A DNA stretch of 64,000 nt from Antrihabitans stalactiti (GTDB lineage Bacteria; Actinomycetota; Actinomycetes; Mycobacteriales; Mycobacteriaceae). The stretch lies in assembly GCF_012932915.1 (NCBI RefSeq), contig NZ_VCQU01000006.1, positions 186,001 to 250,000 of the forward strand. Direction: 5' to 3'. The position numbers were made by a program, and so were the translations under genes. This document shows positions 41,068 through 64,000 of the stretch, in pieces; the stretch's first letter is position 1; every line of letters starts with the position of its first letter. The notes under the pieces are model-generated. The model saw only the letters and a program-made list of their open reading frames with translations. It had not been told where the DNA came from and did no database searches.

Positions 41068-41749
41068 AGTCAGCCGTCCATATCCCTTCGCCGGAGCAGA
41101 TTCAATTCGCTCATATTCATTCGCCTCGATATTAGCGGCTCAGTAACTGAAATCCTACGGTTGGGGTCGTATTCGTGCTACAAGTCGCAATAGCCGTGTC
41201 GCGTCGTCGCAGATAACGGCAGTGTTTGCCGGACACCGCGACGGTCGACTGGTCGTGTGTCCACTCCCTCAAACGGGCCAGTCGAGGCGCTCCGACCTCG
41301 AATTTTGAGGGTTGCTTAGAAGTAGCTCGGCGTGTCGTGGGCGAATAACCAGGCGGCACCAAGTCGAGTAAGACGTGTCGGTGGCGCCGTTGCGTACCTG
41401 GTTGTCGTTCGTGCGCGCGCCAAGAGTCGTGTGATCCGCCCGCAAACCTCACGCTCGCTCGCTGTGCGGGGCTAATCAAATCCACCGGTTTTTTTAGTTT
41501 CGCAATCTCCAAAACGCGCTTCGATTTTGTGTCCGGGGGTATGCGAACTTGGCGAAAGATTGTGCTCGACCACTGCAAGCGAGCCGGTGACGCCCAGCCT
41601 TGGGCCTGTGACCTTATGCCCTGGCTGGCATCACGGTGAGGCGGTCTGCTTGCGGTGGGGTCCGGTGACGACCGTCACGAGATCCTGCGATACTGCCGTA
41701 TCGCCCGACCGAATTGGGAGTTCGCGAATTGCAGGGACAGTAAGGAATA
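41068..41749. other. Long intergenic region upstream of the NRPS gene
   Basis: About 680 bases with no convincing gene. The part near the EspR-like gene and around 41480-41530 is AT-richer than the surroundings, with a T-run at about 41490. The region probably holds promoters for both the regulator and the NRPS. No KstR-type site was seen. Confidence 0.5.
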
Positions 41750-41950
41750 TTGGTAGTACTCAACGAAAATTCGAAGAGCTTTCGCAGGCCGCCATCCGCG
41801 CGCGCAGAGTGGACCGACGCACTCGCCGCGGGGCGAGCGCTGCCGGACTTGCAGATCGGGGCGGTCGGTATTCGTGCATCAGGAGTCTTCGCTCATCGTG
41901 ACGAAACCCGTTGCGGCAACCCTTTCGAGCGCTTCGGCTCACGCCAATGA
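41750..41950 (+). CDS. Possible small leader ORF coupled to the NRPS
   Basis: 66 codons from TTG 41750, with AAGGA only a few bases upstream. It ends in a TGA that overlaps the NRPS ATG (ATGA). Codon third positions look G/C-biased over much of its length, so it may be translated. The protein resembles nothing I know. Alternatively it is the true N-terminus of the NRPS separated by a frameshift, or just chance. Confidence 0.3.
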   Translation: MVVLNENSKSFRRPPSARAEWTDALAAGRALPDLQIGAVGIRASGVFAHRDETRCGNPFERFGSRQ

Positions 41951-44900
41951 TCGCTGACATTCCGGGTTTGGTCGCGGCTGTCGCCGAGCGTGAGCCGGAG
42001 CGGGCGGTGGTGGTTTTCGACGGTGTGACGGTGACGTATCGCGCTTTGGCCGAGCAGCTGCAGGCGATGGATGCGGCGATGGGTGGGGCGTTGCCGGCCG
42101 AGGCGTTGGTGCCGGTGGTGTTGGGTGATGTGGTTCCGGGGTTTGTGGAGTCGGTGTCGGGTGGGCTCGACGGGGTGGTCGAGGCGATCGTGTCGGATGC
42201 GGTGTCGGTCACCGATATCGGCGGCGGTGCGTCGGCGGCCGTCGATGTGGTGGAGACGTTGGTCGCGGCGTTCGACCGGCAGGTGATCGCGTCGCCGGAT
42301 GCGGTGGCGTTGGTGTTCGGTGACACGTCGTTGTCGTATGCGGAGTTCGATGCGCGGGCGAACCGGTTGGCGCGGCATTTGATCGGTCTGGGGGTGGGTC
42401 CGGAGACGCGGGTGGGGTTGGCGGTCCGGCGGTCGGTGGAGTTGTTGGTCGGGATGTACGCGATCCTCAAAGCCGGCGGTGCGTATGTGCCGATCGATCC
42501 GGATCATCCGGCGGAGCGGATCGAGTATGTGCTCGACACCAGCCACCCGGTGGTGGTGCTGAGCACCGCCCGTGACGAATTCGCATCGTCCTCGACGGTG
42601 CCGGTGGTACGGCTCGACCAGGTTGACGTGTCTGCATTGTCGGCGGATCCGGTGACCGATGCGGACCGTGTTGCTCCGTTGCGGCCGGAGTCTGCGGCGT
42701 ATGTGATTTTCACGTCCGGGTCGACGGGTCGCCCGAAGGGTGTGGTGGTCTCGCACCGGTCGGTGCTGAACTATCTGACCTGGCGTCAAACCGAGTATGG
42801 GTTGACGTCGGCGGATGTGGTGTTGCAGAAGACGCCGTTCACCTTCGATGTGTCGGTGTGGGAGTTGTTCTGGCCGTTGCAGGTCGGCGCCACGTTGGTG
42901 ATTGCGGAGCCGGACGGTCATCGGGATCCGGCGTATTTGGCGGCGACGATGATCGAACACGGTGTGACGGCGGTGCATTTCGTGCCGTCGATGTTGTCGG
43001 TGTATGTCGGAGAACCCCTTGCGGCGCGGGTGTCGTCGTTGCGGTACGTGTTCGCGTCGGGGGAGGCGTTGCCGGCGCAGGTGGCGGCCCGGTTGCGCGA
43101 GATCAGTGCCGCGGAGTTGCACAACTTGTACGGGCCGACCGAGGCGGCGGTGGAGGTCAGCTACTACCAGGTCACCGACAAGGATGTGGCGTCGATCCCG
43201 ATCGGGTTGCCGGTGGCGAACACGGAGTTGCTGGTTCTCGATGACGGGTTGCGCCCGTCGCCGACCGGGGTGGCGGGGGAGTTGTATCTGGCCGGAGTCC
43301 AGTTGGCGCGGGGTTATATCGCGCGCCCGGATTTGACGGCGGATCGGTTCGTGGCGAACCCGTTCACCGCGGGGCAGCGGATGTATCGGACCGGGGATCT
43401 GGTCCGTCGCCGCGGCGACGGGATCATCGAGTATTTGGGGCGGACCGATTTTCAGGTCAAGATCCGCGGTTTGCGCATCGAACTCGGCGAGATCGAGGGG
43501 GTGTTGCGCGGCGCAGACGGGGTCGTCGACGTCGTCGCCGCCGTGCACGTGGATCCGGTCGCGGGGGATCAGCTCATCGCGTACGTGGTGCCCGACGCGG
43601 GTATCGAACTCGACAACGACGCGCTCGCTTCCGCTGCCCGGCAACAGCTTCCGGACTATATGATTCCGGCGTTGTTCGTTTCGTTGGATGCGCTGCCGTT
43701 GAATGCGAGCGGCAAACTTGATCGAAAGGCGCTTCCCGCAGCGGACTTCGCGGTTCTGGCAAAGCAGTATCGCGCACCAGAAACTCCGAGCGAAGAGATC
43801 CTCGTCAAGCTGTTCGCGGATCTGCTTGGCCTCGAGCGGATCGGCGTAGACGACGACTTCTTCGCCCTGGGCGGCAACTCGTTGATCGCGACCCGGGCGA
43901 TCGCGCGGATCAACACCGACTTCGGTGTCCGCATCGACGTCCGTGATTTCTTCGACGCTCCCACAGTCGGGGAACTGGGTGCGTTGATCGAACAGACGCT
44001 GGCAACCGCCGGTGCGGGCCAGCCGTCGCTCGTCGCCTTGGAACGGCCGGAGCGGCTGCCGCTATCGCTTGCGCAGCAACGGATGTGGTTCCTCAACCGG
44101 TTCGACACCACCTCGGCGGTGAACAACATTCCGGTTGCCGTTCGTTTGTCGGGCGAGTTGGATGTGGCTGCGCTGCAAGAGGCCGTGACCGATGTCGTCG
44201 GTCGGCATGAGGTTCTCCGGACCGTCTATCCGGCGATCGAGGGCATCGGCTATCAGCTTGTACTCACGGCCGATGATGCCGCTATCGACCTTGCGCCGAT
44301 ATCGGTATCGGACGACGACTTGGTCGGACGGATCATTGCGGATGCATCCGCGGGTTTCGATGTGACAGTGGAGGTTCCGGTCCGGGCCCGGCTCTACCAA
44401 ATCTCCAGTGCCGTGGACGAGTACGTCCTTGTCTTCGTGGTGCATCACATCAGTGCCGACGGTTTCTCGATGGGCCCGCTGACCCGGGATGTGATGGTGG
44501 CTTACGCCGCGCGGGTGCAGGGGGATGCGCCGGGGTGGGCGCCGTTGGAGGTGCAGTACGCCGATTACGCGTTGTGGCAACGCCAAGTCCTCGGTAGTGA
44601 GGACGATCCGACTTCGATCATTGCTCGCCAGGAGGCGTACTGGTCGACGGTGTTGGCTGATCTGCCCGATCAGTTGGACTTGCCGCGGGATCGGCCGCGG
44701 CCGGCGGTGGCGTCCAATCGTGGTGCCGACTACGAGTTCGACCTCGACCCCGCTTTGCGGGCCGGTCTCAATAGCTTGGCGCAGGCGCATGGTGCGACGT
44801 TGTTCATGGTCGTGCACTCAGCGTTGTCGGTGCTTCTGTCGAGGTTGTCGGGGTCCGACGACATCGCGATCGGCACTCCGGTCGCCGGGCGTGGCGACGC

Positions 44901-47900
44901 GGCGCTCGACGACTTGATCGGGATGTTCGTCAACACGTTGGTGTTGCGGACGCGCGTTGATGGCGCGGCGACTTTCGCGGAAACGCTTGCCGGAGTGCGG
45001 GAGCGGGACCTGGGGGCATTCGGCCACGCGGATGTGCCGTTCGAGCGACTGGTGGAGGTGCTCGACCCGGCCCGCTCGCAAGCGCGGCATCCGCTGTTTC
45101 AGGTGATGCTGACGTTGCAGAACCTGGGTGAGACCTCGTTCGAGTTGCCGGGGCTGACGGTGTCCGCGGTCGATGTCGCGGTGGATACGGCGAAGTTCGA
45201 TCTGGCGTTGACGTTGGTCGAGGTCGGTGACGGGCTGCACGCGCATCTGGCGTATGCGACGGACCTGTTCGACCGGTCGACCGTAGCCGGGTTGGCAGAT
45301 CGTTTCATCGGCCTGCTGCGGACGGTGGTCGCCGACCCCGCCGTCGTCGTCGGTGACGTCGATCTGCTCGACAGCGTGGAACGCAGTCTCGTTGTCGACG
45401 AATGGAATTCGACCGACCATCCGGTGGACGCGGCAACTCTGCCCGAGTTGTTCGAGGCGGCGGTCGCACGCACTCCTGATGCGACTGCGGTCGTGTTCGA
45501 AGATGAGCATCTCTCCTACGCCGAGTTCTCGGCGCGCGTGCATCGGCTTGCCCGGTACCTGATCTCGGTCGGGGTCGGTCCGGAGTCGTTGGTGGGGGTG
45601 TCGATTCGCCGGTCCACCGATCTCCTCATCGCAATGTATGCGGTCCTGGAAGCGGGCGGTGCCTATGTGCCGCTCGACCCCGATCACCCGGCGGAGCGGA
45701 CCGCGCACGTGCTCGCGACTGCGGCGCCGGTCTGTGTGTTGACCATGGTGAGTGACGATTTCGCTGCTGCCGATGTTGCGGTGCATCGGATCGATGAGCT
45801 CGACCTCTCCGGTGTGGATGCGGTACCGATCACGCCGGACGAGCGACGGGCGCCGTTGCGGCCGGAGAACACGGCGTACGTGATTTTCACCTCGGGGTCG
45901 ACGGGACGGCCGAAGGGGGTGGCGGTCAGCCACCGCGCGATCGTGAACCAGCTGCTGTGGATGCAGGCGGAGTATCGGCTCGATTCCACCGACACGGTGT
46001 TGTTCAAGACCCCGGCGACGTTCGACGCGTCGGTGTGGGAAGTGTTGTGGCCGTTGCAGGTTGGTGCCCGGCTGGTCGTGGCACGTCACGACGGTCATCG
46101 GGATCCGGGATACCTGCTCGACGTCATTGCTGCCGAGCAGGTCACCACCGTCCAGTTCGTCCCCTCGCTGCTCGCGGTGTTGCAGGACAGCATCGGCGAC
46201 ACCGGCATCCCCGGACTACGTCGCGTCTTCGCTGGTGGTGAAGTGTTGCCGGCAGGGTTGGCGACCCGGTTCGCCGAGTCGACCGGCACCGCCGTCCACA
46301 ACCTCTACGGGCCGACCGAGACCACGGTGCAGGTCACCCGCCGACAAAGCCGGGCCGATGATGTGGTGGCGGTGCCGATCGGCGCTCCGGTCTTCAACAC
46401 CCACGTGTTCGTGCTCGACGCCCGGCTGCGCCCGGTGCCCGTCGGTGTGGCAGGCGAGCTGTATGTCGCCGGAACCCAATTGGCGCGCGGGTATGTCGGC
46501 AGCGGCAGTTTGACCGCCGACCGGTTCGTCGCCAACCCCTTCACCGAGGGTGCCCGGTTGTATCGCACCGGTGACCTGGTCCGCTGGACCAGTGCCGGGG
46601 AACTGGTTTATGTGGGGCGCACCGATTTCCAGGTGAAACTGCGTGGGTTGCGGATCGAGCTGGGTGAGGTCGAGACCGCGCTGCTCGCGCACGAGTCGGT
46701 CGCCCAAGCGGTCGCGGTGGTCCGGACCGACGAACGCCTCGGGGACCGTCTCGTCGGCTACGTCGTCCCACCCGTCGGCGTCGACGTCGACGTGCCCGCC
46801 CTGCTGGAGTTCGTGGGCCGGGCGGTGCCGTCCTACATGGTGCCCGACGCCATCGTCGTCCTCCCCGAACTCCCCTTGAACGCCAACGGCAAACTGGATC
46901 GTAAAGCGTTGCCGGAACCGGTGTTCGAGGCGCGCGAGTTCCGGGCACCGGTGACTCCGACCGAGCAGGTGGTGGCGGCGGTCTACGCCGAGGTCCTCGG
47001 TATCGACCGGGTCGGGCTCGACGACGACTTCTTCGATCTGGGTGGCAACTCGTTGATCGCGACCCAGGTGGTGGTGCGGATCGGATCCGCGCTGGACGTG
47101 CAGCTCGGGGTCCGTGAGTTGTTCGAAGCGTCCACCGTGGCCGCCCTCGCCGCTCGTGCGGAGCACGCGGCCGGGGCACCGGCGCGTCCCCCGCTGGTCG
47201 CCAAGGAGCGTCCGGCGCGGGTGCCGTTGTCGTTGGCACAGCAACGGATGTGGTTCCTCAATCAGTTCGACACCACCTCGGCGGTGGACAACATCCCCCT
47301 CGCCGTGCGGTTGACCGGGGACCTCGACGTCGCCGCCATGGGTGCGGCAGTGACCGATTTGATCGCCCGGCACGAGGTGCTACGCACGGTCTACCCGAAC
47401 ACTCCGCAGGGTCCGCATCAGGTGATTCTGCCGGTGTCGCAGGCGGTTCCAGACCTCACGCCAATCGATATCAGTGAGAATTACCTTGTCGCAAGGGTTC
47501 TCGAGCTCGCCACGGCCGAGTTCGACGTGACCGTCGAGGTGCCGTTGCGGGCAACGCTGTTCGCGCTGGGTGACCACGATTTCGTGATCGTGTTCGTCGC
47601 GCACCATGTGGCGGCGGATGGGTCGTCGATGGCGCCGTTGGCCAGGGATCTGATGACGGCCTATGCGGCGCGTGCCCATGGGGAGGCGCCGGGGTGGGCG
47701 CCGTTGCCGGTGCAGTACGCCGATTACGCGATCTGGCAACGGGAACTACTCGGTAGCGAGGACGATCCGGATTCGGTTGCTGCCCAGCAGGTGTCGTACT
47801 GGAAGTCGAAGCTGGCGGGGTTGCCGGACCAGTTGGATCTGCCGAGTGATCGGCCACGGCCGGCGGTGCAGTCGTTTGTCGGGAAGTCGGTGCCGTTCAG

Positions 47901-50900
47901 CATCGACGCCGAGACCCATCGGGCGTTGTCGGCGTTGGCGCGCAGCCGGAATGCGTCGATGTTCATGCTCATGCACACCGCGTTGGCGGTGCTGCTCGCC
48001 AGGCTCAGTGGCACCGAGGACATTGCGGTCGGGTCGCCGATCGCGCGGCGTGCGGAGCGGGCCCTCGACGACCTGATCGGGATGTTCGTCAACACGTTGA
48101 TCCTGCGCACCGAGGTGGCCGGGGCCACCAGTTTCGACGAGTTGTTGTCGACGTCGCGGGAGTCGGATTTCGAGGCGTTCGCCCATGCGGATGTGCCGTT
48201 CGAGCGGCTTGTGGAGGTGCTGAATCCGGCGCGGTCGACGGCACGGAATCCGTTGTTCCAGGTCGGGTTGTCGTTCCAGAACGTGGCGCAGGCCTCCCTC
48301 GAACTGCCCGGGCTCCACATCAGTGGGGTGGAGTTCGACACCCAGTTGGCCAAGACCGACCTGCAGTTGACGTTGGTGGAGCAGTACGACGACACCGGCG
48401 CCGCCGCTGGCATTCACGCTGAGTTCAGTTACGCCACAGACCTGTTCGATCCCTCCACTGTCGAGGAGTTCGCCGACCGGTTCGCACGGGTCCTGGCCGC
48501 GGTGCTGGCCGATCCCTCGATCCCGGTCGGGGATATCGAACTGCTCGACGACACCGAACGCACCACCGTGCTGCAGGTGTGGAACAACACTGCGGCGGTG
48601 ATCGAGTCGTCCCCGACGTTGCTGGGTGCGTTCGACGCCCAAGTGTCGCGCACACCGGACGCGCTCGCGTTGGTGTTCGGTGAACAGCAGTTCACCTACG
48701 CAGAGTTCGATGCACGAGTCAATCGACTTGCCCGGCACCTGATATCGCTGGGAGTTGGCCCGGAATCGCTGGTGGGCATCGCGATTCGCCGTTCCGCAGA
48801 TCTGCTTGTCGCGTTGTACGCGGTGGTCAAGGCAGGCGGTGCATATGTGCCGCTGGATCCGGATCATCCGGTGGAACGCAACGTATTTGTGTTGCAGACG
48901 GCCGCACCTGTATGCGTATTGACCACTGTCGCTGACGGATTCGGCGAGGCAGGGACGATCCCAGTTCTGACGATCGATACCCTCGAGCTCTCCGGTCTGG
49001 ACGACGATTCACCTGTCTCGGATCAGGAACGCCGGACGCCCCTCCATTCGGAGAACACGGCGTACGTGATCTTCACGTCGGGGTCGACCGGACGCCCGAA
49101 AGGTGTTGCGGTCACTCATGAGGCGATCGTCAACCAACTCGAGTGGATGCAGGCCGAGTACGGTCTCACCGCCGACGATGTGTATCTGCAGAAGACGGCG
49201 ACGACGTTCGACGTCTCGCTGTGGGGTTACTTCCTGCCCCTACGCGTCGGGGCAACGCTGGTTCTGGCGACCCCGGACGGGCACCGCGACCCGGGCTATC
49301 TTGCAGAGACGATCGCCGAACACGCGGTGACGGTGACCGACTTCGTGCCGTCGATGCTGGCGGTGTTCGCCGCGTACGTCGACGCCGACCGCGTCGGGTC
49401 GTTGCGGCAGGTGTTCGTCATCGGTGAAGCGCTGCCGCCGGAGACTGTGGCCGCGTTCCAGCGACTGAGCCCGGCGACCGTGCACAACCTGTACGGACCG
49501 ACCGAGGCGGCGGTGTCGATCACCTATTGGCCCGCGACCGGTAGTGGTACGACCGTTCCGATCGGTCGTCCGGAGTGGAACAGTCAGGTCTACGTCCTCG
49601 ACACCCGACTGCGCCCGGTCCCGGCCGGGGTGGCGGGTGAGCTGTATCTGGCCGGAACCCAGTTGGCGCGTGGGTATGTGGCCCGCCCGGACTTGTCGGC
49701 GGACCGGTTCGTCGCCAACCCGTTCAGCGCCACCGGTGAGCGGATGTATCGCACCGGTGACCTGGTGTCCTGGCGCGGTGACGGGGTGTTGCACTACATC
49801 GGGCGCACCGACTTCCAGGTGAAGTTCCGTGGCCAGCGCATCGAACTCGGCGAGATCGAATCGGCGTTACTCAGTGCCGAGACCGTTGCGCAGGTCGTTG
49901 TCGTTGTGCGAACCGATGAGCGCTTGGGTGATCGCCTAGTCGGGTATGTCGTGCCCGCCGCCGGCGTCGAGGTAGCTGTCGATGCGTTGAAGGCTGTTGT
50001 GGCGCAGTCATTGCCCGCGTATATGGTGCCGGACGTAGTGCTGGTGCTCGACGAGTTCCCGCTCAACACCAGCGGCAAGTTGGACCGTAAAGCGTTGCCC
50101 GAGCCGGTGTTCGAGGTGCGGGAGTTCCGGGCACCGACCACGCCGATCGAGGAGATCGTGGCCGGGGTGTTCGCCGATGTGCTCGGCGTCGCCCGCGTCG
50201 GTGTCGACGACGACTTCTTCGCCTTGGGTGGCAACTCGCTGATCGCGACGCAAGTCGCCTCGCGACTCGGCGCGGCGCTCGACACCCGAGTCCCCGTGCG
50301 GGTGATTTTCGAGGCCCCGACCATGGGTGCGTTGGCCGTGCGGGTCGAGGAACACGCCGGTGCGGGTGGACGCCCCGCCCTGGTGGCGAAGCCACGTCCG
50401 GATCGGGTGCCGTTGTCGCTGGCGCAGCAGCGGATGTGGTTCTTGAACCGGTTCGATCCGGAGTCTTCGGCCTACAACCTTCCGGTCGCGATCCGGTTGG
50501 TCGGCAACCTCGATGTCGACGCATTGCAGTCCGCCGTGACCGACCTGATCGCACGCCATGAAGTCCTACGAACGAAGTACTCCGAGTTCGATGGTGTTCC
50601 GTCGCAGGTGATCCTGCCGCCAGGCGAGGTGGCGGTCGACCTGACTCCTATCCCCGTGGGCGAAAACGAGCTTGGGGCAGCGGTTTACGCGTTCGCAGCG
50701 GCTGGGTTCGATGTCAGTAGTCACGTTCCCGTGCGGGCCAAGCTGTTTGCCGTCGGTGGTGATGAGTTCGTTTTAGCGATCGTGGTGCACCACATCAGTG
50801 CGGATGGTTCGTCGGTGGCTCCGATGGCCAGAGATGTGATGGTCGCGTATTCGGCGCGGGTGCAGGGCGAGGCGCCGACTTGGGCACCGCTGGCAGTGCA

Positions 50901-56900: not shown

Positions 56901-59900
56901 GGTCTCGACGATCGCGGCGGTGCTCGATCGCCACGACATGTGGCGCTCACAGTTGGTGCACGACCCCGAAACCGGTTGGGGTATAACAACTTTGCCGGTA
57001 GGGTCGGTGGATGCCGACACCCTGGTCACGGTCGTGGACATCGATCCTGCGGCCGACGAATCGACGACCGAGGCGGTGGGGTCGGCGGCGTTGGACGCGG
57101 CGATGGGGTGGTTGGACCCGGTCACGGGCCGGATGGTGCGGTTCGTCTGGTTCGACCGCGGCCCCACGCTGACGGGTCGGTTGCTGATCGTGGCCCACCA
57201 CCTGATCGTCGACGGGGTGTCGTGGCGAATCCTGGTGCCCGACTTCGTGACCGCCTGGGCCCAACTCTCCGCCGGACAAACACCCGCCCTCACGCAGGTG
57301 GGGACATCGATGCGGCGCTGGGCCCACGCCCTCGTCGACGAAGCCTCCACCCCGGCACGCGTCGCGGAACTGGGCTGGTGGCAATCGATCCTGCACGGTC
57401 CGGACCCGGTACTCGGGTCACGGCCGTTCGACCCGACCCGCGACGTCGTCGCCACCGTGCAACGACTGCAGGTCCGGGTCCCGACCGACGTCACCGCCGC
57501 GGTGCTGAAAACCATCCCCGGGTTGTTGCGCGGCGGCGTCAACGACGGACTACTGACTGCGTTGGCAATGGCGGTCGCGGCGTGGCGCGCCGAGCACGGG
57601 GTGACCCAATCGTCGACGTTGTTGCAGTTGGAAGGCCACGGCCGCGAGGAAGAGGTGATCGCCGGGGCGGACCTGTCCCGCACGGTCGGCTGGTTCACCA
57701 CCGCCTTCCCGGTCCGACTCGACCTCACCGGTCTCGACATCGCCGACGCCCTGTCGGGTGGCCCAGCAGCGGGGGCCGCGCTCAAACGAGTGAAGGAAGC
57801 ATTGCTGGCGATCCCGGACAAGGGACTCGGGTACGGGTTGCTGCGGCATCTCAACCCCGACACCGCACCGGTACTGACCGCACTGCCGGACGGGCAACTC
57901 AGTTTCAACTACCTCGGCCAGGTCTCGCTCGACGGTGTGCCCGACGAGGTCGCCGGGCTTGGCTGGACCCCCGCCGGTGGGTTGGGTGAGCTCACCGCTG
58001 CGGGTGATGCGGATATGCCAGCGAACAAGGTGATCGACATCAACGCCATCGTCACCGACGAGGACGGTGAGGGGCAGTCGTTGGGTGCCTCGTTCGCCTA
58101 CGCCTCGCAGGTGATCTCGGGTGACGCGGTGGCACGGTTGGCGCAGTTGTGGGTGGAGGCGTTGACCGCGCTCGCGGCCTATGCGTCCTCACCGGGGGCG
58201 GGTGGGTTGACGCCGTCGGATCTGAGTTTGGTGTCGCTGGGACAGAACGAGATCGAGGAGTTCGAGTCCCGCTTCGACGGTGTGGTCGATGTCTGGCCGT
58301 TGGCGCCGTTGCAGTCGGGGTTGATGTTCCACGCCATGCTCGCCGGTGCCTCGGTGGACATGTACTCGATCCAGGTGGTGCTCGATCTGTCCGGTGCACT
58401 CGACGCCGGCCGGTTGCACGCGGCGGCGCAGGCGGTGCTGGATCGGTACCCGAACTTGCGGACCGCGTTCCTCACCGACGCCGACGGGACTCCGATCCAG
58501 GTGGTCCTCGACCACCTCGACGTGCCGTGGCGTGAGGTGGATCTGACCACCCTGTCGGAAGGGGAGCGGGAAGCGGCGCTGGCAGCGTTGTTGGCCACCG
58601 ATCAGGCCACCAACTTCGACCTCGCCAGCCCGCCGTTGCTGCGGTTCTTGTTGGTCACGGTCGGTGAGGGTGTGTTCAAGCTGGTGATGGCCAATCATCA
58701 CATCCTGCTGGATGGGTGGTCGATGCCGTTGCTGATGAAGGACCTGCTGGTCCTGTATGCCACGCACGCCGATCCGGCGCTGTTGGGCCGCGCGCGCCCG
58801 TATCGGTCCTACCTGGCGTGGCTGGGTGAGCAAGACCCCGCCAAGTCACTGCAGGTCTGGGCCAACGCGCTCGACGGAGTCGACGAGCCGACGCTGCTTG
58901 CGCGCTCCGGAGCGGGCCTGGCGACCACGCAACGAACAGGCGAAGTCGTTGCCATCGTCGACGAGCAGATCGCAGGGGGGCTGACGGCACTCGGCGCCCG
59001 TCTGGGCATCACGGTCAACACCATCGTGCAGACCGCGTGGGGTCTTCTCCTCGGAAGGCTCACCGGCCGCACCGATGTCGTGTTCGGCGCGACGGTGTCG
59101 GGTCGACCACCGCAACTCGCGGGTGTCGAGTCGATGATCGGTCTGTTCATCAACACCGTGCCGGTCCGGATCCAAATCAAGCCGTCGGAATCCCTCGAGG
59201 ACCTACTCGTCCGCGTGCAGCGTGAGCAGGCCGACCTACTCGAGCACCATTACATCCAGCTTGCTGATATTCAGCGAGTCACCGGCACAGGATCGTTGTT
59301 CGACACCCTGACCGTGTTCGAGTCCTACCCGGTCGACACTGCCGGGCTGGCCGAGCAAGCCGGCGCCATCGAGGGCCTGAGCGTCGACGGCGTCCGCTCC
59401 AACGATGCCCCGCACTATCCGTTGTCGATGGTCATCACGGCAGCCGCCGAGATCCGCGTGACGTTCGAATACTTGCAGGCACTGCTCGACGAGCAGACCG
59501 TCAGCACGATCGCGAACAGGCTGATGCGCGTCGTGACGGCGTTCGTCACTGATCCGTCGAGCGCGGTGGGTGATGTCGACGTGCTCCTCGCGGGGGAGCG
59601 AGAGTTGGTGTCGTCGAGGGCGCTGACCCCCGGCGCGGTGGTGGACCCGAACGTAACGTTGGTGTCGTTATTCGACGCGCAGGTCACGGCGGCCCCGGAT
59701 GCGGTGGCGGTGACGTTCGAGGATGCGTCGTTGACCTATGCCGAGCTCGACGCGCGGGCGAATGCGCTTGCGCGGTATCTGATTTCGGTGGGTGTGGGTC
59801 CGGAGTCGTTGGTCGGTGTGGTGCTGGGACGATCACTGGATGTGGTGGTCGCGATCCTGGCGGTGCTCAAGGCCGGTGGTGGGTATGTGCCGGTGGATCC

Positions 59901-62900
59901 GTCCTACCCGGCCGAACGCATCGCTTACACGCTGACCGATAGCGCACCGGTCTGTGTGCTCACCGATTCCGAATCGGTGTCGGCAGTACCGGAGTCGGTG
60001 TCGGCCCTGCGGGTGTTGATCGACGAGGTCGAGGTGTCGGAGTTCTCCGCTGCACCGGTGACGGATGCAGATCGACTGTGCCCGTTGCGATCTGCGGATG
60101 TGGCGTATGTGATCTACACGTCGGGGTCGACGGGTCGGCCGAAGGGTGTGGCGGTCACCCATCGCAATGTGGTCGAGTTGATGGCCAATGCTGCGCCGAA
60201 GTTCGGGTTCGATTCCACCGATGTGTGGACGATGTTCCATTCGCCGGCGTTCGACTTCTCGGTGTGGGAGCTGTGGGGCCCGTTGCTGTTCGGCGGACGT
60301 TTGGTGGTGGTGGATTACTTCACCTCCCGCTCGCCACAAGATTTTGTGGAACTGGTGCGCCGTGAAGGCGTGACGGTGCTCAACCAGACCCCGTCGGCGT
60401 TCTATCAATTCGCGGAAGCGGAGCGGGTGGCGGCCGACACGGACGCAGACCGGTTGTCGTTGCGCCACATCGTGTTCGGTGGTGAGGCGTTGGATCTGGG
60501 TCGGTTGTCGGGGTGGGTGGCCCGCCATGATGCCGGTCCGCGGTTGGTGAACATGTACGGCATCACCGAGACGACGGTGCACGTGTCGTTCGTGGCGGTG
60601 ACAGCCGAGATGGTGGCTGCGGGCGGTGGCTCGGTGATCGGTCGTGGCCTGCCCGGGTTGGGTGTGTTCGTGCTGGACGCGCGGTTGGCGCCGGTGCCGG
60701 TGGGTGCTGCGGGTGAGGTGTACGTCTCGGGGGAGCAGCTCTCGCGCGGGTATGTCGGTCGGGCAGCGTTGAGCGCGGGCCGGTTCGTGGCGAATCCGTT
60801 CGGGGAGGACGGTTCTCGGCTGTACCGCACTGGCGACGTGGCTGCATGGAACGCCCAGGGGCAGTTGGAATACGCCGGTCGCTCAGACGCCCAGGTGCAG
60901 TTGCGTGGGTTCCGGATCGAATTGGGCGAGATCGAGTCGGCGTTGATCCGGTGCGCGGGTGTCGCGGATGCGGTGGCCATCGTGCGGACCGACGAGCGCA
61001 CCGGTGATCGCCTGGTGGGGTATGTCGTTCCCGAGGCGGGCGCCACGCTGGAACCAGCACAGATTTCGGAGACCGTGGCGGGGTTCTTGACCTCCTACAT
61101 GGTGCCGGATGCGGTGATGGTGCTCGAGGCGTTGCCGTTGACGGGCAACGGGAAGTTGGATCGTAAGGCGTTGCCGGCGCCGGAGTTTGTGTCCGACAAG
61201 GTGTTCCGGGCGGCTGAGACCGAGGTCGAGCAGATCATCGGTGAGGTGTTCGCGCAGGTGCTCGGGGTGGACCGGGTCGGTGTGGATGATTCGTTCTTCG
61301 CGTTGGGTGGCGACAGCATCGTCTCGATTCAGTTGGTGTCGCGGGCGAAGGCGCGGGGTGTGGTGTTCTCCCCGCGAGATGTGTTCGAACGCAAGACCGT
61401 TGCCGGTTTGGCCGAGGTCGCGCAGCTCGCGCACGACTCGGATTCGGCTGTGCTCGAAGAACTCTCCGGTGCCGGCGTCGGTTGGCGGCCACTGACGCCT
61501 GTCGAGACTGCTCTCGTCGAGGGTCCGGGCCATTTCGACCGCAACAGCCAGACGATGGTGGTGGAGTTGCCGACCGGGATCGAGCGGTCCGGTCTGATGG
61601 AAACGCTTGCAGCGGTTGTCGATAGACACGACATGTTGCGGTCGCGATTGGTGCGAGACGGCACCGGCCGGTGGGGTCTCGAGACGACCGATCCTGGAAC
61701 TGTGGCAGTCGACGCGCTGCTGCGTCACGTGCCGATCGTCATCGACGACGTTTCTGGATTGGCCTCCGCTGAATTGGACGCCGCGCTGGGCCGCTTGAAT
61801 CCGGCTGCGGGCGTGATGGTGCAGTTAGTGTGGTTCGACCGCGGCGAGACGGAGTCGGGCCAGCTGCTGATCGTCGCGCATCACCTGGTCGTCGACGGAG
61901 TGTCGTGGCGAATTCTGCTGCCGGACTTGGCAGCTGCGTGGATGCAGGTGGCGGACGGTCGGGTCCCGGCATTGGCACCGGTCGGGACGTCGATGCGACG
62001 GTGGGCGCACGCGTTGATCGACGCCGCGTCGTCGGAGTCCAGGGTTGCCGAACTTCCACTGTGGCGATCCATCCTGGCGGGCCCGGATCCCCTGCTCGGT
62101 GCCCGTGCTTTCGATCCCACTCGCGACACAGTCGCCACCGTCGAGCGTTTCGATGTACGGCTCCCGGCCGATGTGACAACAGCCCTCGTGAAAACCATTC
62201 CGGGGTTGTTCCGGGGCGGGGTCAACGATGGGTTGTTGGCGGGTCTCGCACTGGCACTTGTGAAGTGGCGAGCCCTTCGCGGGGTGGTCGAACCCACCGC
62301 GTTGATTCAACTCGAGGGCCACGGCCGTGAGGAACAGGCGGTTCCGGGTGCGGACCTGTCGCGGACGGTGGGGTGGTTCACCAGTGTGTTCCCGGTTCGG
62401 CTAAACACGTCTGGTCTCGATGTCGACGACGCCTTGGCCGGTGGTACTGCGGCGGGCAACTCGATCAAGACGGTCAAGGAAGCATTGCTCCGGATTCCGG
62501 ACAAAGGTTTGGGCTATGGACTGCTGCGGCACCTGAATGCCGATACCGCCGAAGCCCTTTCAGGCATTTCGGACGGACAAATCAGTTTCAACTACCTCGG
62601 TCAGGTGTCGTTGGCGGGTCCGGACGGTGCCGGCGAGGCGCAGATTCCATGGGCGCCTTCGGCCCGGCTGGGGCAATTGTCCGCGTCGGGCGATCTCGAC
62701 ATGCCCGCGAACAAGATCATCGATATCAACGCTGTCGTCGTCGACGGACCTGACGGTCCGAGCTTGCGTGCCTCCTTCGCGTTCGCCACAGAAGTTCTGT
62801 CCGAGAACGATGTTCGGCAGTTTGCGGACCTGTGGGTCGATGCGCTGACCGGGTTGGCCGCTCATGTCCGCACGCCTGGTGCAGGTGGTTTGACACCGTC

Positions 62901-64000
62901 GGATGTGCCCTTGGTGTCGGTGGCACAAAGCGACCTCGAGCTGTTCGAAACACGATATCCAGCAGCGATCGACGTGTGGCCGTTGGCGCCGTTGCAGTCG
63001 GGCTTGTTGTTCCACGCGCTGTTGGCACAATCGTCGGTGGATGCGTACTCGGTGCAGGTGACGTTGACCCTGTCCGGGGCGGTCGATTCGGCGCGGCTGC
63101 ACGCGGCGGCACAAGGAGTGCTCGACCGGTATACGAACCTACGCACCGCATTCGTAACCGACCAGCAGGGCAATGCGGTGCAGGTGGTCCTCGACTCGGT
63201 AGCCGTGCCGTGGCGTGCGGTGGATCTGTCGCGAATGTCCGCGGCTGAACGTGATTCGGCGGTACTGAACTTGTTGGCCGAGGATCGGCTGACCCACTTC
63301 GATGTGACACAGCCACCGTTGATCCGATTCGCGCTTCTGACGCTGGCGGACGACGAGTTCATGCTGGTGGTCACGAACCATCACATCCTGCTCGACGGCT
63401 GGTCGATGCCCCTGGTGCTCAGGGACTTGCTGGTGTTGTACGCCGCTCGTGGTGACGATTCAGCGTTGGGGCGGGTGCGTCCGTATCGGTCATACCTCGC
63501 GTGGTTGGCCGAGCAGGACCGTCAGGCTTCGGCACAGTTGTGGGCCGAGGCACTGGCGGGGGTCGAGCGGCCGACGTTGCTGGCGCCCGCGGATCCGGGC
63601 CGTGAGCTGAGTTCGATGTCCGAGCAAGTCACGATGGATCTTGACGCGCACATGTCGGCGATGCTATCGACACGCGCTGCGGATCTCGGCGTGACGCTCA
63701 ATACGATCGTCCAGGTTGTTTGGGGAATTCTCTTGGGGCGCTTGCTCGGTCGTGACGATGTGGTCTTCGGTGCCACAGTGTCCGGTCGCCCGGCGCAACT
63801 GCCTGGGGTGGAGTCGATGGTCGGGTTGTTCATCAACACCCTCCCAGTGCGGGTGCGGATCGACCCCGACGAGTCGCTCGACAAGTTGCTGCAACGGGTG
63901 CAGTCCGAACAGGCGGCGCTGCTCGATCACCACTACCTTGGTTTGGGCGATATCGCGCAGGACCTCGGCGAGGCGGTGGTGTTCGACACGTTGACGGTGT
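41947..64000 (+). CDS. Giant non-ribosomal peptide synthetase (3' end outside window)
   Basis: A single frame open from ATG 41947 to the window end: 22,054 bases, over 7,350 residues, with no stop seen on reading through. Order: ~100-residue stub, A1-T1, C2-A2-T2, C3-A3-T3, C4-A4-T4, C5-A5-T5-E5, C6-A6-T6-E6, C7... Each A domain has the SGSTG ATP loop and a GKLDR(K/N)ALP end; each T domain has GG(N/D)S with the pantetheine serine. It makes a peptide starting with Ser and containing two D-(allo)Thr. There is no N-terminal condensation domain. No clear ribosome site precedes the ATG, which overlaps a small ORF's stop. TTA codons occur at 49867, 50773, 59668 and 61825. No MbtH-like, thioesterase or transport gene is in the window. 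Confidence 0.95.
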   Translation, partial: MIADIPGLVAAVAEREPERAVVVFDGVTVTYRALAEQLQAMDAAMGGALPAEALVPVVLGDVVPGFVESVSGGLDGVVEAIVSDAVSVTDIGGGASAAVDVVETLVAAFDRQVIASPDAVALVFGDTSLSYAEFDARANRLARHLIGLGVGPETRVGLAVRRSVELLVGMYAILKAGGAYVPIDPDHPAERIEYVLDTSHPVVVLSTARDEFASSSTVPVVRLDQVDVSALSADPVTDADRVAPLRPESAAYVIFTSGSTGRPKGVVVSHRSVLNYLTWRQTEYGLTSADVVLQKTPFTFDVSVWELFWPLQVGATLVIAEPDGHRDPAYLAATMIEHGVTAVHFVPSMLSVYVGEPLAARVSSLRYVFASGEALPAQVAARLREISAAELHNLYGPTEAAVEVSYYQVTDKDVASIPIGLPVANTELLVLDDGLRPSPTGVAGELYLAGVQLARGYIARPDLTADRFVANPFTAGQRMYRTGDLVRRRGDGIIEYLGRTDFQVKIRGLRIELGEIEGVLRGADGVVDVVAAVHVDPVAGDQLIAYVVPDAGIELDNDALASAARQQLPDYMIPALFVSLDALPLNASGKLDRKALPAADFAVLAKQYRAPETPSEEILVKLFADLLGLERIGVDDDFFALGGNSLIATRAIARINTDFGVRIDVRDFFDAPTVGELGALIEQTLATAGAGQPSLVALERPERLPLSLAQQRMWFLNRFDTTSAVNNIPVAVRLSGELDVAALQEAVTDVVGRHEVLRTVYPAIEGIGYQLVLTADDAAIDLAPISVSDDDLVGRIIADASAGFDVTVEVPVRARLYQISSAVDEYVLVFVVHHISADGFSMGPLTRDVMVAYAARVQGDAPGWAPLEVQYADYALWQRQVLGSEDDPTSIIARQEAYWSTVLADLPDQLDLPRDRPRPAVASNRGADYEFDLDPALRAGLNSLAQAHGATLFMVVHSALSVLLSRLSGSDDIAIGTPVAGRGDAALDDLIGMFVNTLVLRTRVDGAATFAETLAGVRERDLGAFGHADVPFERLVEVLDPARSQARHPLFQVMLTLQNLGETSFELPGLTVSAVDVAVDTAKFDLALTLVEVGDGLHAHLAYATDLFDRSTVAGLADRFIGLLRTVVADPAVVVGDVDLLDSVERSLVVDEWNSTDHPVDAATLPELFEAAVARTPDATAVVFEDEHLSYAEFSARVHRLARYLISVGVGPESLVGVSIRRSTDLLIAMYAVLEAGGAYVPLDPDHPAERTAHVLATAAPVCVLTMVSDDFAAADVAVHRIDELDLSGVDAVPITPDERRAPLRPENTAYVIFTSGSTGRPKGVAVSHRAIVNQLLWMQAEYRLDSTDTVLFKTPATFDASVWEVLWPLQVGARLVVARHDGHRDPGYLLDVIAAEQVTTVQFVPSLLAVLQDSIGDTGIPGLRRVFAGGEVLPAGLATRFAESTGTAVHNLYGPTETTVQVTRRQSRADDVVAVPIGAPVFNTHVFVLDARLRPVPVGVAGELYVAGTQLARGYVGSGSLTADRFVANPFTEGARLYRTGDLVRWTSAGELVYVGRTDFQVKLRGLRIELGEVETALLAHESVAQAVAVVRTDERLGDRLVGYVVPPVGVDVDVPALLEFVGRAVPSYMVPDAIVVLPELPLNANGKLDRKALPEPVFEAREFRAPVTPTEQVVAAVYAEVLGIDRVGLDDDFFDLGGNSLIATQVVVRIGSALDVQLGVRELFEASTVAALAARAEHAAGAPARPPLVAKERPARVPLSLAQQRMWFLNQFDTTSAVDNIPLAVRLTGDLDVAAMGAAVTDLIARHEVLRTVYPNTPQGPHQVILPVSQAVPDLTPIDISENYLVARVLELATAEFDVTVEVPLRATLFALGDHDFVIVFVAHHVAADGSSMAPLARDLMTAYAARAHGEAPGWAPLPVQYADYAIWQRELLGSEDDPDSVAAQQVSYWKSKLAGLPDQLDLPSDRPRPAVQSFVGKSVPFSIDAETHRALSALARSRNASMFMLMHTALAVLLARLSGTEDIAVGSPIARRAERALDDLIGMFVNTLILRTEVAGATSFDELLSTSRESDFEAFAHADVPFERLVEVLNPARSTARNPLFQVGLSFQNVAQASLELPGLHISGVEFDTQLAKTDLQLTLVEQYDDTGAAAGIHAEFSYATDLFDPSTVEEFADRFARVLAAVLADPSIPVGDIELLDDTERTTVLQVWNNTAAVIESSPTLLGAFDAQVSRTPDALALVFGEQQFTYAEFDARVNRLARHLISLGVGPESLVGIAIRRSADLLVALYAVVKAGGAYVPLDPDHPVERNVFVLQTAAPVCVLTTVADGFGEAGTIPVLTIDTLELSGLDDDSPVSDQERRTPLHSENTAYVIFTSGSTGRPKGVAVTHEAIVNQLEWMQAEYGLTADDVYLQKTATTFDVSLWGYFLPLRVGATLVLATPDGHRDPGYLAETIAEHAVTVTDFVPSMLAVFAAYVDADRVGSLRQVFVIGEALPPETVAAFQRLSPATVHNLYGPTEAAVSITYWPATGSGTTVPIGRPEWNSQVYVLDTRLRPVPAGVAGELYLAGTQLARGYVARPDLSADRFVANPFSATGERMYRTGDLVSWRGDGVLHYIGRTDFQVKFRGQRIELGEIESALLSAETVAQVVVVVRTDERLGDRLVGYVVPAAGVEVAVDALKAVVAQSLPAYMVPDVVLVLDEFPLNTSGKLDRKALPEPVFEVREFRAPTTPIEEIVAGVFADVLGVARVGVDDDFFALGGNSLIATQVASRLGAALDTRVPVRVIFEAPTMGALAVRVEEHAGAGGRPALVAKPRPDRVPLSLAQQRMWFLNRFDPESSAYNLPVAIRLVGNLDVDALQSAVTDLIARHEVLRTKYSEFDGVPSQVILPPGEVAVDLTPIPVGENELGAAVYAFAAAGFDVSSHVPVRAKLFAVGGDEFVLAIVVHHISADGSSVAPMARDVMVAYSARVQGEAPTWAPLAVQYADYALWQRELLGSDDDPTSLASRQVAYWRSTLDGLPDQLDLPSDRPRSIAQSLAGRSVRFSVDADTHAALSVLARNHGASLFMVLHTAFAVLLARLSGTEDIAIGSPIAGRGERALDDLIGMFVNTLVFRTQVDGSMPFVELLRATREADLEAFANADVPFERLVEVLNPARSTARHPLFQVGLSFQNLAQTILELPGLQVSSVDIDQAISQFDLHLIVNDLRDAAGGPAGISGIITYATDLFDESTVVKFADRLNRVLAAVVADPVVTVGDIELLDVAERSAVLEKWNDTVHELASGATLVSLFDAQVARDPDALAVVFEGESLTYGQFDARVNRLARHLISVGVGPESLVGLAIRRSTDLLVGMYAIVKAGGAYVPIDLDHPADRVAHILDTAAPVCVVSTARDGFDVDGDRAVVRIDTLDLGAVDASVVTDAERRGPVRPDTTAYVIFTSGSTGVPKGVAVSHGAVANQLQWKQSAYGLGAGDAVLLKTAATFDLSVWEFWSALVSGATVVVARADGHQDPQYLNELIRAHAVSVLQVVPSMLQALLIESGGVLGSSLRAVLAIGEALPPATAQRFRNHNQGRLDNLYGPTEAAVSVTAHVVTEADVVSVPIGSPEWNTQVYVLDGRLGPVPVGVAGELYLAGAQLARGYHGRPDLTADRFVANPFGAPGARLYRTGDLVSWDASGSLQYVGRTDFQVKVRGFRIELGEIESVLAAQPGVAQVAVVSRRDSRTGDQLVAYLVGDTANSVDVDVVRAAAVRELPSYMVPAAVVVLEALPLTVNGKLDRKALPAPVFEAGEFRAPVTPVEQIVAQTFAEVLGVDRVGLDDDFFALGGNSLIATQVAARLGAALETRIAVRVLFEAPTVGALAVRVEQHAGVDGRAPLVAGPRPSVVPLSIAQKRMWFLNRFDPESAAYNIPIAIRLTGSLDVHAMRAAVTDVIARHEVLRTVYTETDGLPSQVMLPAADVDLPVESVREDDVIARVSELTSHGFDVTTEVPVRLNLLQIADNEHVLVVVVHHVSADGWSMGPLARDLMIAYAARAQGEAPGWTPLEVQYADYALWQHDVLGDEYDPNSLISQQETYWKTALAGLPDQLNLPSDRPRPATASNRGASFDFAIDAETHQALSAIARANNATLFIAVHAALAVLLARLSGTDDIVIGTPIAGRGEQALDDLVGMFVNTLVLRADVRPDESFDELVSQLQRTDLQAFGHADVPFERLVEVLAPQRSTARHPLFQVMLTFHNLAATEFSLPELTVAAVDFDAAVAKFDLQLTMAANVDGAGISASFTYATDLFDESTISSFAQRFVRLLEAFAADPATAVGDVELLAAGERELLVSSWALTPGAVVDPSVTLVSLFDAQVAAAPDAVAVTVEDVSLTYAALDGRANALARYLISVGVGPESLVGVVLGRSLDVVVAILAVLKAGGGYVPVDPSYPAERVAYTLTDSAPVCVLTDSESASAVPESVTALRVLIDEVSEFSAAPVTDADRLSPLRSQDVAYVIYTSGSTGRPKGVAVAHCNVVELMANAGPKFGFDSSDVWTMFHSPAFDFSVWELWGPLLFGGRLVVVDYFTSRSPQDFVELVRREGVTVLNQTPSAFYQFAEAERVAGAGRLSLRHVIFGGEALDLTRLSGWYARHGDSEPRLVNMYGITETTVHVSFAELTSESARSGAASVIGRGLPGLSVYVLDARLRPVPVGVPGELYVAGRQLARSYFRRPGLSAGRFVADPFGNPGSRLYRTGDVAAWNAKGQLEYAGRSDAQVQLRGFRIELGEIESVLASFAGVASAVAVVRTDEVTGERLIGYVVPQADVSVNPVDVTEFVSAFLPTFMVPDVVMVLDDLPLTVNGKLDRNALPAPEFLSDKVFRAAESPVEQMISEVFAEVLGLERVGVDDSFFALGGDSIVSIQLVSRARQRGVVFSPRDVFERKSVAGLAEIARLAHDSDSVVLEELPGAGVGWRPLTAIERSVIEGPGGFTRNSQTMMLELPVGIDRAGVVSTIAAVLDRHDMWRSQLVHDPETGWGITTLPVGSVDADTLVTVVDIDPAADESTTEAVGSAALDAAMGWLDPVTGRMVRFVWFDRGPTLTGRLLIVAHHLIVDGVSWRILVPDFVTAWAQLSAGQTPALTQVGTSMRRWAHALVDEASTPARVAELGWWQSILHGPDPVLGSRPFDPTRDVVATVQRLQVRVPTDVTAAVLKTIPGLLRGGVNDGLLTALAMAVAAWRAEHGVTQSSTLLQLEGHGREEEVIAGADLSRTVGWFTTAFPVRLDLTGLDIADALSGGPAAGAALKRVKEALLAIPDKGLGYGLLRHLNPDTAPVLTALPDGQLSFNYLGQVSLDGVPDEVAGLGWTPAGGLGELTAAGDADMPANKVIDINAIVTDEDGEGQSLGASFAYASQVISGDAVARLAQLWVEALTALAAYASSPGAGGLTPSDLSLVSLGQNEIEEFESRFDGVVDVWPLAPLQSGLMFHAMLAGASVDMYSIQVVLDLSGALDAGRLHAAAQAVLDRYPNLRTAFLTDADGTPIQVVLDHLDVPWREVDLTTLSEGEREAALAALLATDQATNFDLASPPLLRFLLVTVGEGVFKLVMANHHILLDGWSMPLLMKDLLVLYATHADPALLGRARPYRSYLAWLGEQDPAKSLQVWANALDGVDEPTLLARSGAGLATTQRTGEVVAIVDEQIAGGLTALGARLGITVNTIVQTAWGLLLGRLTGRTDVVFGATVSGRPPQLAGVESMIGLFINTVPVRIQIKPSESLEDLLVRVQREQADLLEHHYIQLADIQRVTGTGSLFDTLTVFESYPVDTAGLAEQAGAIEGLSVDGVRSNDAPHYPLSMVITAAAEIRVTFEYLQALLDEQTVSTIANRLMRVVTAFVTDPSSAVGDVDVLLAGERELVSSRALTPGAVVDPNVTLVSLFDAQVTAAPDAVAVTFEDASLTYAELDARANALARYLISVGVGPESLVGVVLGRSLDVVVAILAVLKAGGGYVPVDPSYPAERIAYTLTDSAPVCVLTDSESVSAVPESVSALRVLIDEVEVSEFSAAPVTDADRLCPLRSADVAYVIYTSGSTGRPKGVAVTHRNVVELMANAAPKFGFDSTDVWTMFHSPAFDFSVWELWGPLLFGGRLVVVDYFTSRSPQDFVELVRREGVTVLNQTPSAFYQFAEAERVAADTDADRLSLRHIVFGGEALDLGRLSGWVARHDAGPRLVNMYGITETTVHVSFVAVTAEMVAAGGGSVIGRGLPGLGVFVLDARLAPVPVGAAGEVYVSGEQLSRGYVGRAALSAGRFVANPFGEDGSRLYRTGDVAAWNAQGQLEYAGRSDAQVQLRGFRIELGEIESALIRCAGVADAVAIVRTDERTGDRLVGYVVPEAGATLEPAQISETVAGFLTSYMVPDAVMVLEALPLTGNGKLDRKALPAPEFVSDKVFRAAETEVEQIIGEVFAQVLGVDRVGVDDSFFALGGDSIVSIQLVSRAKARGVVFSPRDVFERKTVAGLAEVAQLAHDSDSAVLEELSGAGVGWRPLTPVETALVEGPGHFDRNSQTMVVELPTGIERSGLMETLAAVVDRHDMLRSRLVRDGTGRWGLETTDPGTVAVDALLRHVPIVIDDVSGLASAELDAALGRLNPAAGVMVQLVWFDRGETESGQLLIVAHHLVVDGVSWRILLPDLAAAWMQVADGRVPALAPVGTSMRRWAHALIDAASSESRVAELPLWRSILAGPDPLLGARAFDPTRDTVATVERFDVRLPADVTTALVKTIPGLFRGGVNDGLLAGLALALVKWRALRGVVEPTALIQLEGHGREEQAVPGADLSRTVGWFTSVFPVRLNTSGLDVDDALAGGTAAGNSIKTVKEALLRIPDKGLGYGLLRHLNADTAEALSGISDGQISFNYLGQVSLAGPDGAGEAQIPWAPSARLGQLSASGDLDMPANKIIDINAVVVDGPDGPSLRASFAFATEVLSENDVRQFADLWVDALTGLAAHVRTPGAGGLTPSDVPLVSVAQSDLELFETRYPAAIDVWPLAPLQSGLLFHALLAQSSVDAYSVQVTLTLSGAVDSARLHAAAQGVLDRYTNLRTAFVTDQQGNAVQVVLDSVAVPWRAVDLSRMSAAERDSAVLNLLAEDRLTHFDVTQPPLIRFALLTLADDEFMLVVTNHHILLDGWSMPLVLRDLLVLYAARGDDSALGRVRPYRSYLAWLAEQDRQASAQLWAEALAGVERPTLLAPADPGRELSSMSEQVTMDLDAHMSAMLSTRAADLGVTLNTIVQVVWGILLGRLLGRDDVVFGATVSGRPAQLPGVESMVGLFINTLPVRVRIDPDESLDKLLQRVQSEQAALLDHHYLGLGDIAQDLGEAVVFDTLTV
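42247..43990 (+). other. NRPS module 1: A(Ser)-T
   Basis: A1 (~42247-43740) has YVIFTSGSTGRPKG, FDVSVWE and NLYGPTEAAVE. The specificity residues read DVWHFSLVEK, one change from the EntF serine code. T1 carries its serine at 43879 (LGGNS). No condensation domain precedes it, so it should load the first residue. Confidence 0.85.
44020..47175 (+). other. NRPS module 2: C-A(Gln-like)-T
   Basis: C2 has LSLAQQRMWFLNR and HHISADG (from 44443), an LCL-type domain as no epimerase precedes it. A2 (~45436-46920) reads DAWQFGLVQK, closest to the DAWQFGLIDK code for glutamine with the last two variable positions changed. T2 serine is at 47050. Confidence 0.8.
47200..50360 (+). other. NRPS module 3: C-A(unassigned)-T
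   Basis: C3 active site HHVAADG begins at 47602. A3 (~48616-50100) reads DVWDFILVSK, which matches no code I can name with confidence. T3 serine is at 50236 (LGGNS). Confidence 0.75.
50390..53540 (+). other. NRPS module 4: C-A(unassigned)-T
   Basis: C4 active site HHISADG begins at 50788. A4 (~51796-53285) reads DLWQLILVSK, again no assigned code; it shares the 301/322/330/331 residues (I, L, V, S) with A3. T4 serine is at 53422. Confidence 0.75.
53575..58170 (+). other. NRPS module 5: C-A(Thr)-T-E
   Basis: C5 active site HHVSADG begins at 53968. A5 (~54973-56480) reads DFWNIGMVHK, the exact threonine code. T5 has LGGDS, serine at 56620, the form typical before an epimerase. E5 (~56791-58170) has HHLIVDGVSWRI (57196), GYGLLRHL and NYLGQ, converting Thr to its D (allo) form. 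Confidence 0.88.
58285..62870 (+). other. NRPS module 6: C(DCL)-A(Thr)-T-E
   Basis: C6 (VWPLAPLQSGLMFHA; HHILLDGWS at 58696) is the type that accepts a D-residue. A6 (~59653-61170) reads DFWNVGMVHK, a threonine code. T6 serine is at 61315 (LGGDS). E6 (~61483-62870) has HHLVVDGVSWRI at 61879 and NYLGQ. A5 and A6 are nearly identical over long DNA stretches. Confidence 0.88.
62968..64000 (+). other. NRPS module 7: C(DCL), cut by the window end
   Basis: VWPLAPLQSGLLFHALLA opens the domain and HHILLDGWS (63379) is its active site; it is the DCL type, as expected after E6. The remaining part of this domain and all later modules lie outside the window. Confidence 0.85.

Follow-up and report, generated by a model that had tools for sequence, protein, structure and literature searches.

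Docking domains order NRPS assembly lines through complementary pieces at the subunit ends, and a review, in the sections covered here, describes COM, PAX and beta-hairpin classes, some docking domains forming C-terminal/N-terminal pairs, with COM domains at E/C junctions and the PaxB-C pair at a PCP/C junction (PMC9113145). In the combinatorial PKS-NRPS assembly of depsipeptide HDAC inhibitors in Pseudomonas, docking joins a conserved half with variable second halves (PMC13324335). Rhodococci carry many NRPS clusters, including 71 families whose product is unknown and a family, NRPS-2, conserved across most of these bacteria (Ceniceros et al., 2017, PMC5550956).

The genome of Antrihabitans stalactiti (6.76 Mb in 26 contigs) has 85 matches to the condensation-domain family, E domains included; the covered sections of the rhodococcal study mention neither docking nor an NRPS at a steroid locus (Ceniceros et al., 2017, PMC5550956). 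The window analysed here, a 64,000-nucleotide stretch at positions 186001-250000 of contig 23 (C23), holds the beginning of a giant NRPS gene. We propose, with a probability of roughly 0.48, that its product is an alternative downstream arm fed in trans by an 8,496-aa NRPS encoded on contig 21, the two belonging to a branched line. The proposed joint consists of a giving half at the end of the upstream subunit (the C-dock) and a receiving half at the start of the downstream subunit (the N-dock). Like the COM, PAX and beta-hairpin classes (PMC9113145), these pieces stand at subunit ends, and like some of them in C-terminal/N-terminal pairs, but both halves appear to derive from the N-terminus of the A domain and the module is split between C and A. 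Compared with the depsipeptide system, as far as its account is covered here, the docks would be of another origin than the beta-hairpin modality of Pseudomonas, and both proposed arms lie within one genome (PMC13324335). We found no description of an A-domain-derived docking pair at C|A junctions in the literature searched, which took in subscription papers in part and included the covered sections of the docking-domain review (PMC9113145). The giant gene itself belongs to a well-known kind of enzyme; the new part would be the paired A-domain-derived pieces at C|A splits, together with the giant as an unpaired receiving half and a single giving half.

The reading frame of the giant is open from 41902, behind a TGA at 41899, past the window end, and joining the next stretches of the contig places its stop, a TAG, at 81064-81066. 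The sequence-only reading had claimed a stop-free NRPS frame leaving the window, and the frame was indeed found open throughout 41947-64000. Counted from the ATG at 41947, the protein has 13,039 aa (13,054 codons from stop to stop), giving a gene of ~39 kb; a TTG at 41911 is the other candidate start, and homology with the contig-21 paralogue begins at 41951. The joined sequence contains no N and, judged by the letters alone, no assembly break, and the chance of so long a stop-free run at 64.9% GC is ~1e-146. Size was considered as a mark of novelty and rejected, a genome of the same family (G027) having a 14,513-aa open frame. NRPSs larger than the giant exist.

Our own profiles give the domain order dock, A-T, (C-A-T)x3, (C-A-T-E)x3, (C-A-T)x4, TE, amounting to 11 modules with 11 A, 11 T, 10 C, 3 E and 1 TE domains, the E domains standing after modules 5, 6 and 7. 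The HHxxxD motif is kept in all 13 C and E domains and the T-domain serine motif in all 11 T domains (ten by pattern, the eleventh by eye); with its repeated C, A and T domains and intact core motifs, the giant is a modular (type I) NRPS. The part of the gene inside the window (41947-64000, plus strand, as are the in-window features that follow) opens with the N-dock, the putatively A-domain-derived docking-like piece, at 41950-42216. Module 1 (A1-T1, 42247-43971, code DVWHFSLVE, Ser) has no C domain before it and is followed by the C-A-T modules 2 (44053-47142, DAWQFGLVQ, Gln-like), 3 (47218-50328, DVWDFILVS) and 4 (50404-53514, DLWQLILVS) and by the C-A-T-E modules 5 (53590-58191, DFWNIGMVH) and 6 (58288-62874, DFWNVGMVH), both read as Thr in D configuration. 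Module 7 (DALFVGGIM, hydrophobic) begins with a C domain at 62971-64284, of which 62971-64000 falls in the window, and its A-T-E continues to 67524; modules 8-11 and the TE (67621-81063) lie beyond the window, with the codes DVWDFALVV, DIWHFAWVV and DVWDFILVA for modules 8, 9 and 10 and DFWNIGGVF, Thr-like, for module 11. Five of the 11 codes (3, 4, 8, 9 and 10) are unassigned, so that the unusual product suggested earlier is no more than possible; the code positions and their residue meanings are ones that we assume from general knowledge. Within 41947-64000 the same six complete modules and seventh C domain (from 62971) had been counted earlier, with the same codes (Ser, Gln-like, X, X, Thr, Thr) and with modules 5 and 6 each followed by an E domain. 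C domains standing behind an E domain, three in all, cluster in a tree clade with other post-E C domains, a placement as expected for D-accepting ones. A scan run without a positive control found no MbtH motif in the window or in nine other NRPS blocks of the genome.

Since the giant opens dock-A-T and has no starter C at its N-terminus, it does not by itself have the make-up of a C-starter lipopeptide synthetase. The lipopeptide suggested earlier would be possible only if an upstream partner supplied the acyl start.

The first ~90 residues of the giant match two places in the genome, the N-terminus of the 8,836-aa NRPS of contig 21 (95%) and the C-terminus of the 8,496-aa NRPS (34%). The 8,496-aa NRPS directly precedes the 8,836-aa one, so that the homologous pieces face each other across the junction, which divides a module: C ends the upstream protein and A-T begins the downstream one. 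Dock profiles recover one C-dock (135.7 bits) and two N-docks in A. stalactiti, the next matches, at <=35 bits, being other places such as A-domain starts, and the 8,496-aa NRPS is the only protein of this genome to end in a C-dock. In other genomes the pieces also face each other. Among the named genomes, whose 46 N-dock loci were gathered by a seed motif favouring typical N-docks, 42 have a C-dock <=900 bp upstream that ends the preceding frame. In an overlapping set of family loci, a C-type piece lies <=1.5 kb upstream in 28 of the 29 non-own loci fetched, counting as paired one locus whose N-dock scored C-type (L056) and leaving out two below the dock threshold (L032, L033); L054 alone departs from this, and it seems to be one and the same gene as L067. 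A dock-like piece is matched in 164 of 401 family genomes at E <= 0.001, a count that includes weak matches and for which only some candidates were scored per genome. The N-dock piece is found in Rhodococcus, Rhodococcoides and Prescottella, in keeping with a Rhodococcus-type host, and in a class-wide sample 4 of 345 genomes, A. stalactiti included, match at E <= 1e-8, all from one family.

C-docks (43) and N-docks (48) form separate clades (support 0.88 and 0.73), and in a midpoint-rooted tree the docks together with one in-line copy join in a clade of 92 members (0.82) that is distinct from the N-termini of ordinary A domains. Facing pieces are thus conserved across genomes, as in an NRPS docking pair, with the giant itself carrying the N-half only; its N-dock keeps the conserved dock residues. 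We read the paired pieces as probable docking domains at a C|A split of NRPS subunits. One genome (G008) has two dock matches within a single 11,431-aa frame, and the in-line copy (L162, G008:C3:271466-271750) sits there between C and A; it is possibly an unsplit ancestor or a re-fusion, and its position fits an origin of the docks by partial duplication of an A domain and later fission. In a second kind of C|A junction, seen in the 8,836-aa protein of contig 21 and in the D1/D2 subunits of relatives, the upstream protein closes with C and a shortened A-like stretch that lacks the A3 motif; on contig 21 the protein after the 8,836-aa one begins with an ordinary A domain.

Several comparisons point to the N-terminus of the A domain as the likely source of both dock pieces. 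The C-dock profile weakly matches ordinary A-domain starts, for example 37 bp after a contig-25 C domain (35 bits), and its best NCBIfam match is MxcG (1.2e-5). Against the PDB the N-dock profile finds NRPS A domains, best LgrA (E 2.5e-4) and then CytC1 (0.0024), with no stretch of the LgrA alignment significant on its own; for both docks the Pfam match is AMP-binding, at E 0.07-0.09. In NCBIfam the best N-dock match is a phage family (0.056), which we take to be chance, followed by an acyl-CoA ligase (0.12). A model of the giant's N-dock built from 33 rows (pLDDT 85, pTM 0.73) has the order H-E-E-H-H-H-H, and the best 50 of its 230 Foldseek matches are all adenylate-forming enzymes, at weak values (E >= 0.099); the 21 sequence matches are nearly all adenylate-forming enzymes too, and no COM, PAX or beta-hairpin docking domain stands among those best 50 of 230 or those 21. 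The H-E-E-H-H part of the model does resemble the abbaa order of beta-hairpin docking domains (PMC9113145). A natural C-dock/N-dock chain modelled through its stop reached pLDDT 80 and pTM 0.45, with the halves not placed and mixed weak matches.

The giant appears to have a mixed ancestry. Its aa 12-8314 run collinearly with the 8,836-aa protein at 77% identity; up to and including C5, its domains share 76-99% identity with that protein, and its A6 and T6 are 93% and 100% identical to A5 and T5 there, while the later domains, except T domains and A11, reach 51-73% with their best paralogue in the genome. Identity at fourfold sites between the giant and the contig-21 arm swings from 34 to 95% through C5, a patchiness that we read as probable repeated gene conversion; the dock and the greater part of A1 belong to the stretches where the two arms differ least. 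Furthermore, aa 4551-9601 share 61% identity with an NRPS of congener G001, and the TE matches those of G001 and G003 at 58-60%; from these alignments we take the giant to be a probable chimaera, part contig-21 arm and part line of the genus. A recent whole-gene copy of the contig-21 arm was considered and rejected, both for the patchy fourfold-site identity and for modules 7-11, which lack close paralogues in the genome except for some T domains and A11.

The biosynthetic cluster that had been expected around the frame was not seen; the giant is a lone gene among genes that we read as a rhodococcal steroid-catabolism locus, with KshA, a BphC-type dioxygenase, acyl-CoA dehydrogenases, a CoA-transferase, a thiolase and SDR genes on its left and a thiolase, a P450, a SnoaL-like protein and an acyl-CoA ligase on its right. 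No NRPS partner was found among the flanking genes scanned. In three other species of the genus the same flanks lie ~650-800 bp apart, against 39.9 kb here, and congener homology breaks off at 41168-41184 and restarts at 81074-81076. What sits here in one of the four species compared is one gene with its leader of 762 bp (41185-41946), a leader that matches neither the genome's other NRPS blocks nor the congener site; no 10-base repeat shared between the two edges was found. At the site equivalent to 41184-81074, the three congeners (L148, L149, L150) have a frame of ~100 codons with a PGWVC[LV]-type motif that by eye is not seen in 41170-41960 of the window.

In the branched line that we favour, the giant would lie downstream in a split NRPS line, with its N-terminal ~90 residues as the receiving half of a dock pair made from duplicated A-domain N-termini. 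Docking would bring the terminal C domain of the 8,496-aa NRPS to the seryl-A1-T1 of the giant, with the module split between C and A; the giant would add 11 residues, and its TE would release the product. The 8,496-aa NRPS would also serve its neighbours of 8,836 and 4,609 aa (7 + 4 modules), so that one starter and two arms would make two 18-residue peptides with identical first seven residues, presumably acylated by the first C domain of the 8,496-aa protein. Binding of the docks, service in trans and the product are what we infer from these arrangements. The 8,496-aa NRPS has seven modules, a divergent first C domain and the C-dock directly after a lone terminal C; the first C groups in a tree with the first C of a contig-22 NRPS and is probably of the starter type. 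Module counts run parallel, 7+7+4 with a TE on contig 21 against 7+11 with the giant and its TE. The two arms agree closely where they would meet the upstream subunit (dock 95%, A1 93%, T1 89%), but this likeness is explained without selection for docking because the arms are collinear at 77%. Nine of the ten N-dock subunits available were scanned, and eight show a Ser code in the A domain next to the N-dock; the ninth (D1 of G403) was read as DVWHSGLVD, perhaps a parsing slip. Since Ser codes are also common elsewhere in these NRPS lines, the shared Ser is weak support.

Other fates for the giant can be pictured. It might start by itself, A1-T1 loading serine and beginning an 11-residue peptide while the N-dock is a leftover of copying. 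A-T-first synthetases are known in the gramicidin S and tyrocidine starters, and congener G003 has a 7,071-aa NRPS, resembling the later part and TE of the giant, that begins A-T-E without a dock and with no NRPS domain in the 14.4 kb before it, which counts against the giant needing a dock partner. We nevertheless hold self-starting to be unlikely: the giant's N-dock retains the conserved dock residues, that of its 8,836-aa paralogue faces a C-dock, and the giant lacks an E domain after module 1, unlike the gramicidin S and tyrocidine starters. An idle relocated copy, which finds no partner and makes nothing, would suit the lack of a partner nearby, the absence of the gene from the site in three congeners and a leader without match to other NRPS blocks; it is rather improbable given that the 39 kb contain no stop, that the catalytic motifs checked are intact, and that many domains of modules 7-11 reach only 51-73% with the nearest paralogue in the genome, so that it is not a brand-new copy. 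Elsewhere in the genome (C26:236575-252978, L028), a single in-frame stop within an A domain breaks an NRPS frame into two of 2,076 and 3,391 aa that share one phase.

Four relatives (G401-G404) bear on who might serve an unpaired N-dock, each having two N-docks and one C-dock. These counts, in A. stalactiti and all four relatives, suggested that unpaired N-docks always use the single C-dock, an idea weakened by the subunits ending in a bare C that stand 1.25-1.31 kb before the unpaired N-dock in three of them (G402, G403, G404); in G401 the subunit in front, 1.34 kb off, ends C-T. Because of these bare-C subunits, an N-dock may not need a C-dock to function, or may be a remnant. In all four relatives the space ahead of the unpaired N-dock holds an esterase-family gene (PF00756; L130, L135, L139, L140), antigen-85-like in our reading by eye, which ruled out a pseudo-A domain hidden there; the giant gene has no such neighbour. 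By analogy with the three relatives, the giant could be served by another NRPS of its genome that ends in a bare C, on contig 22 (C22:172549-191262, 6,238 aa) or contig 12 (C12:196730-201151, 1,474 aa), and no A-starting partner was found for either in the stretches taken around them. This is improbable, however: neither has a C-dock, their terminal C domains share 35-41% identity with the others in the comparison, whereas the three bare-C domains of the relatives are 64-66% alike among themselves, and in a tree without contig 12 the contig-22 terminal C is a long branch apart from both groups. Glycosyltransferase family 2 genes adjoin the contig-22 NRPS.

Service in trans from contig 21 belongs to a wider picture that we put forward tentatively: a new docking class, a pair derived from the A N-terminus at C|A splits and confined in our samples to the Rhodococcus family, with a branched line making two 18-residue peptides whose second arm would have arisen by fusion, gene conversion and the relocation of a downstream subunit to the steroid-catabolism locus. 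If this is true, genome mining that equates one locus with one product misreads such a line, in which a peptide would be encoded at two places. A C|A docking pair recognisable in sequence would offer a new means of linking NRPS halves, with both arms in one genome serving as a natural experiment for the dock pair. It would also show an NRPS line gaining a second product by the move of one downstream subunit.
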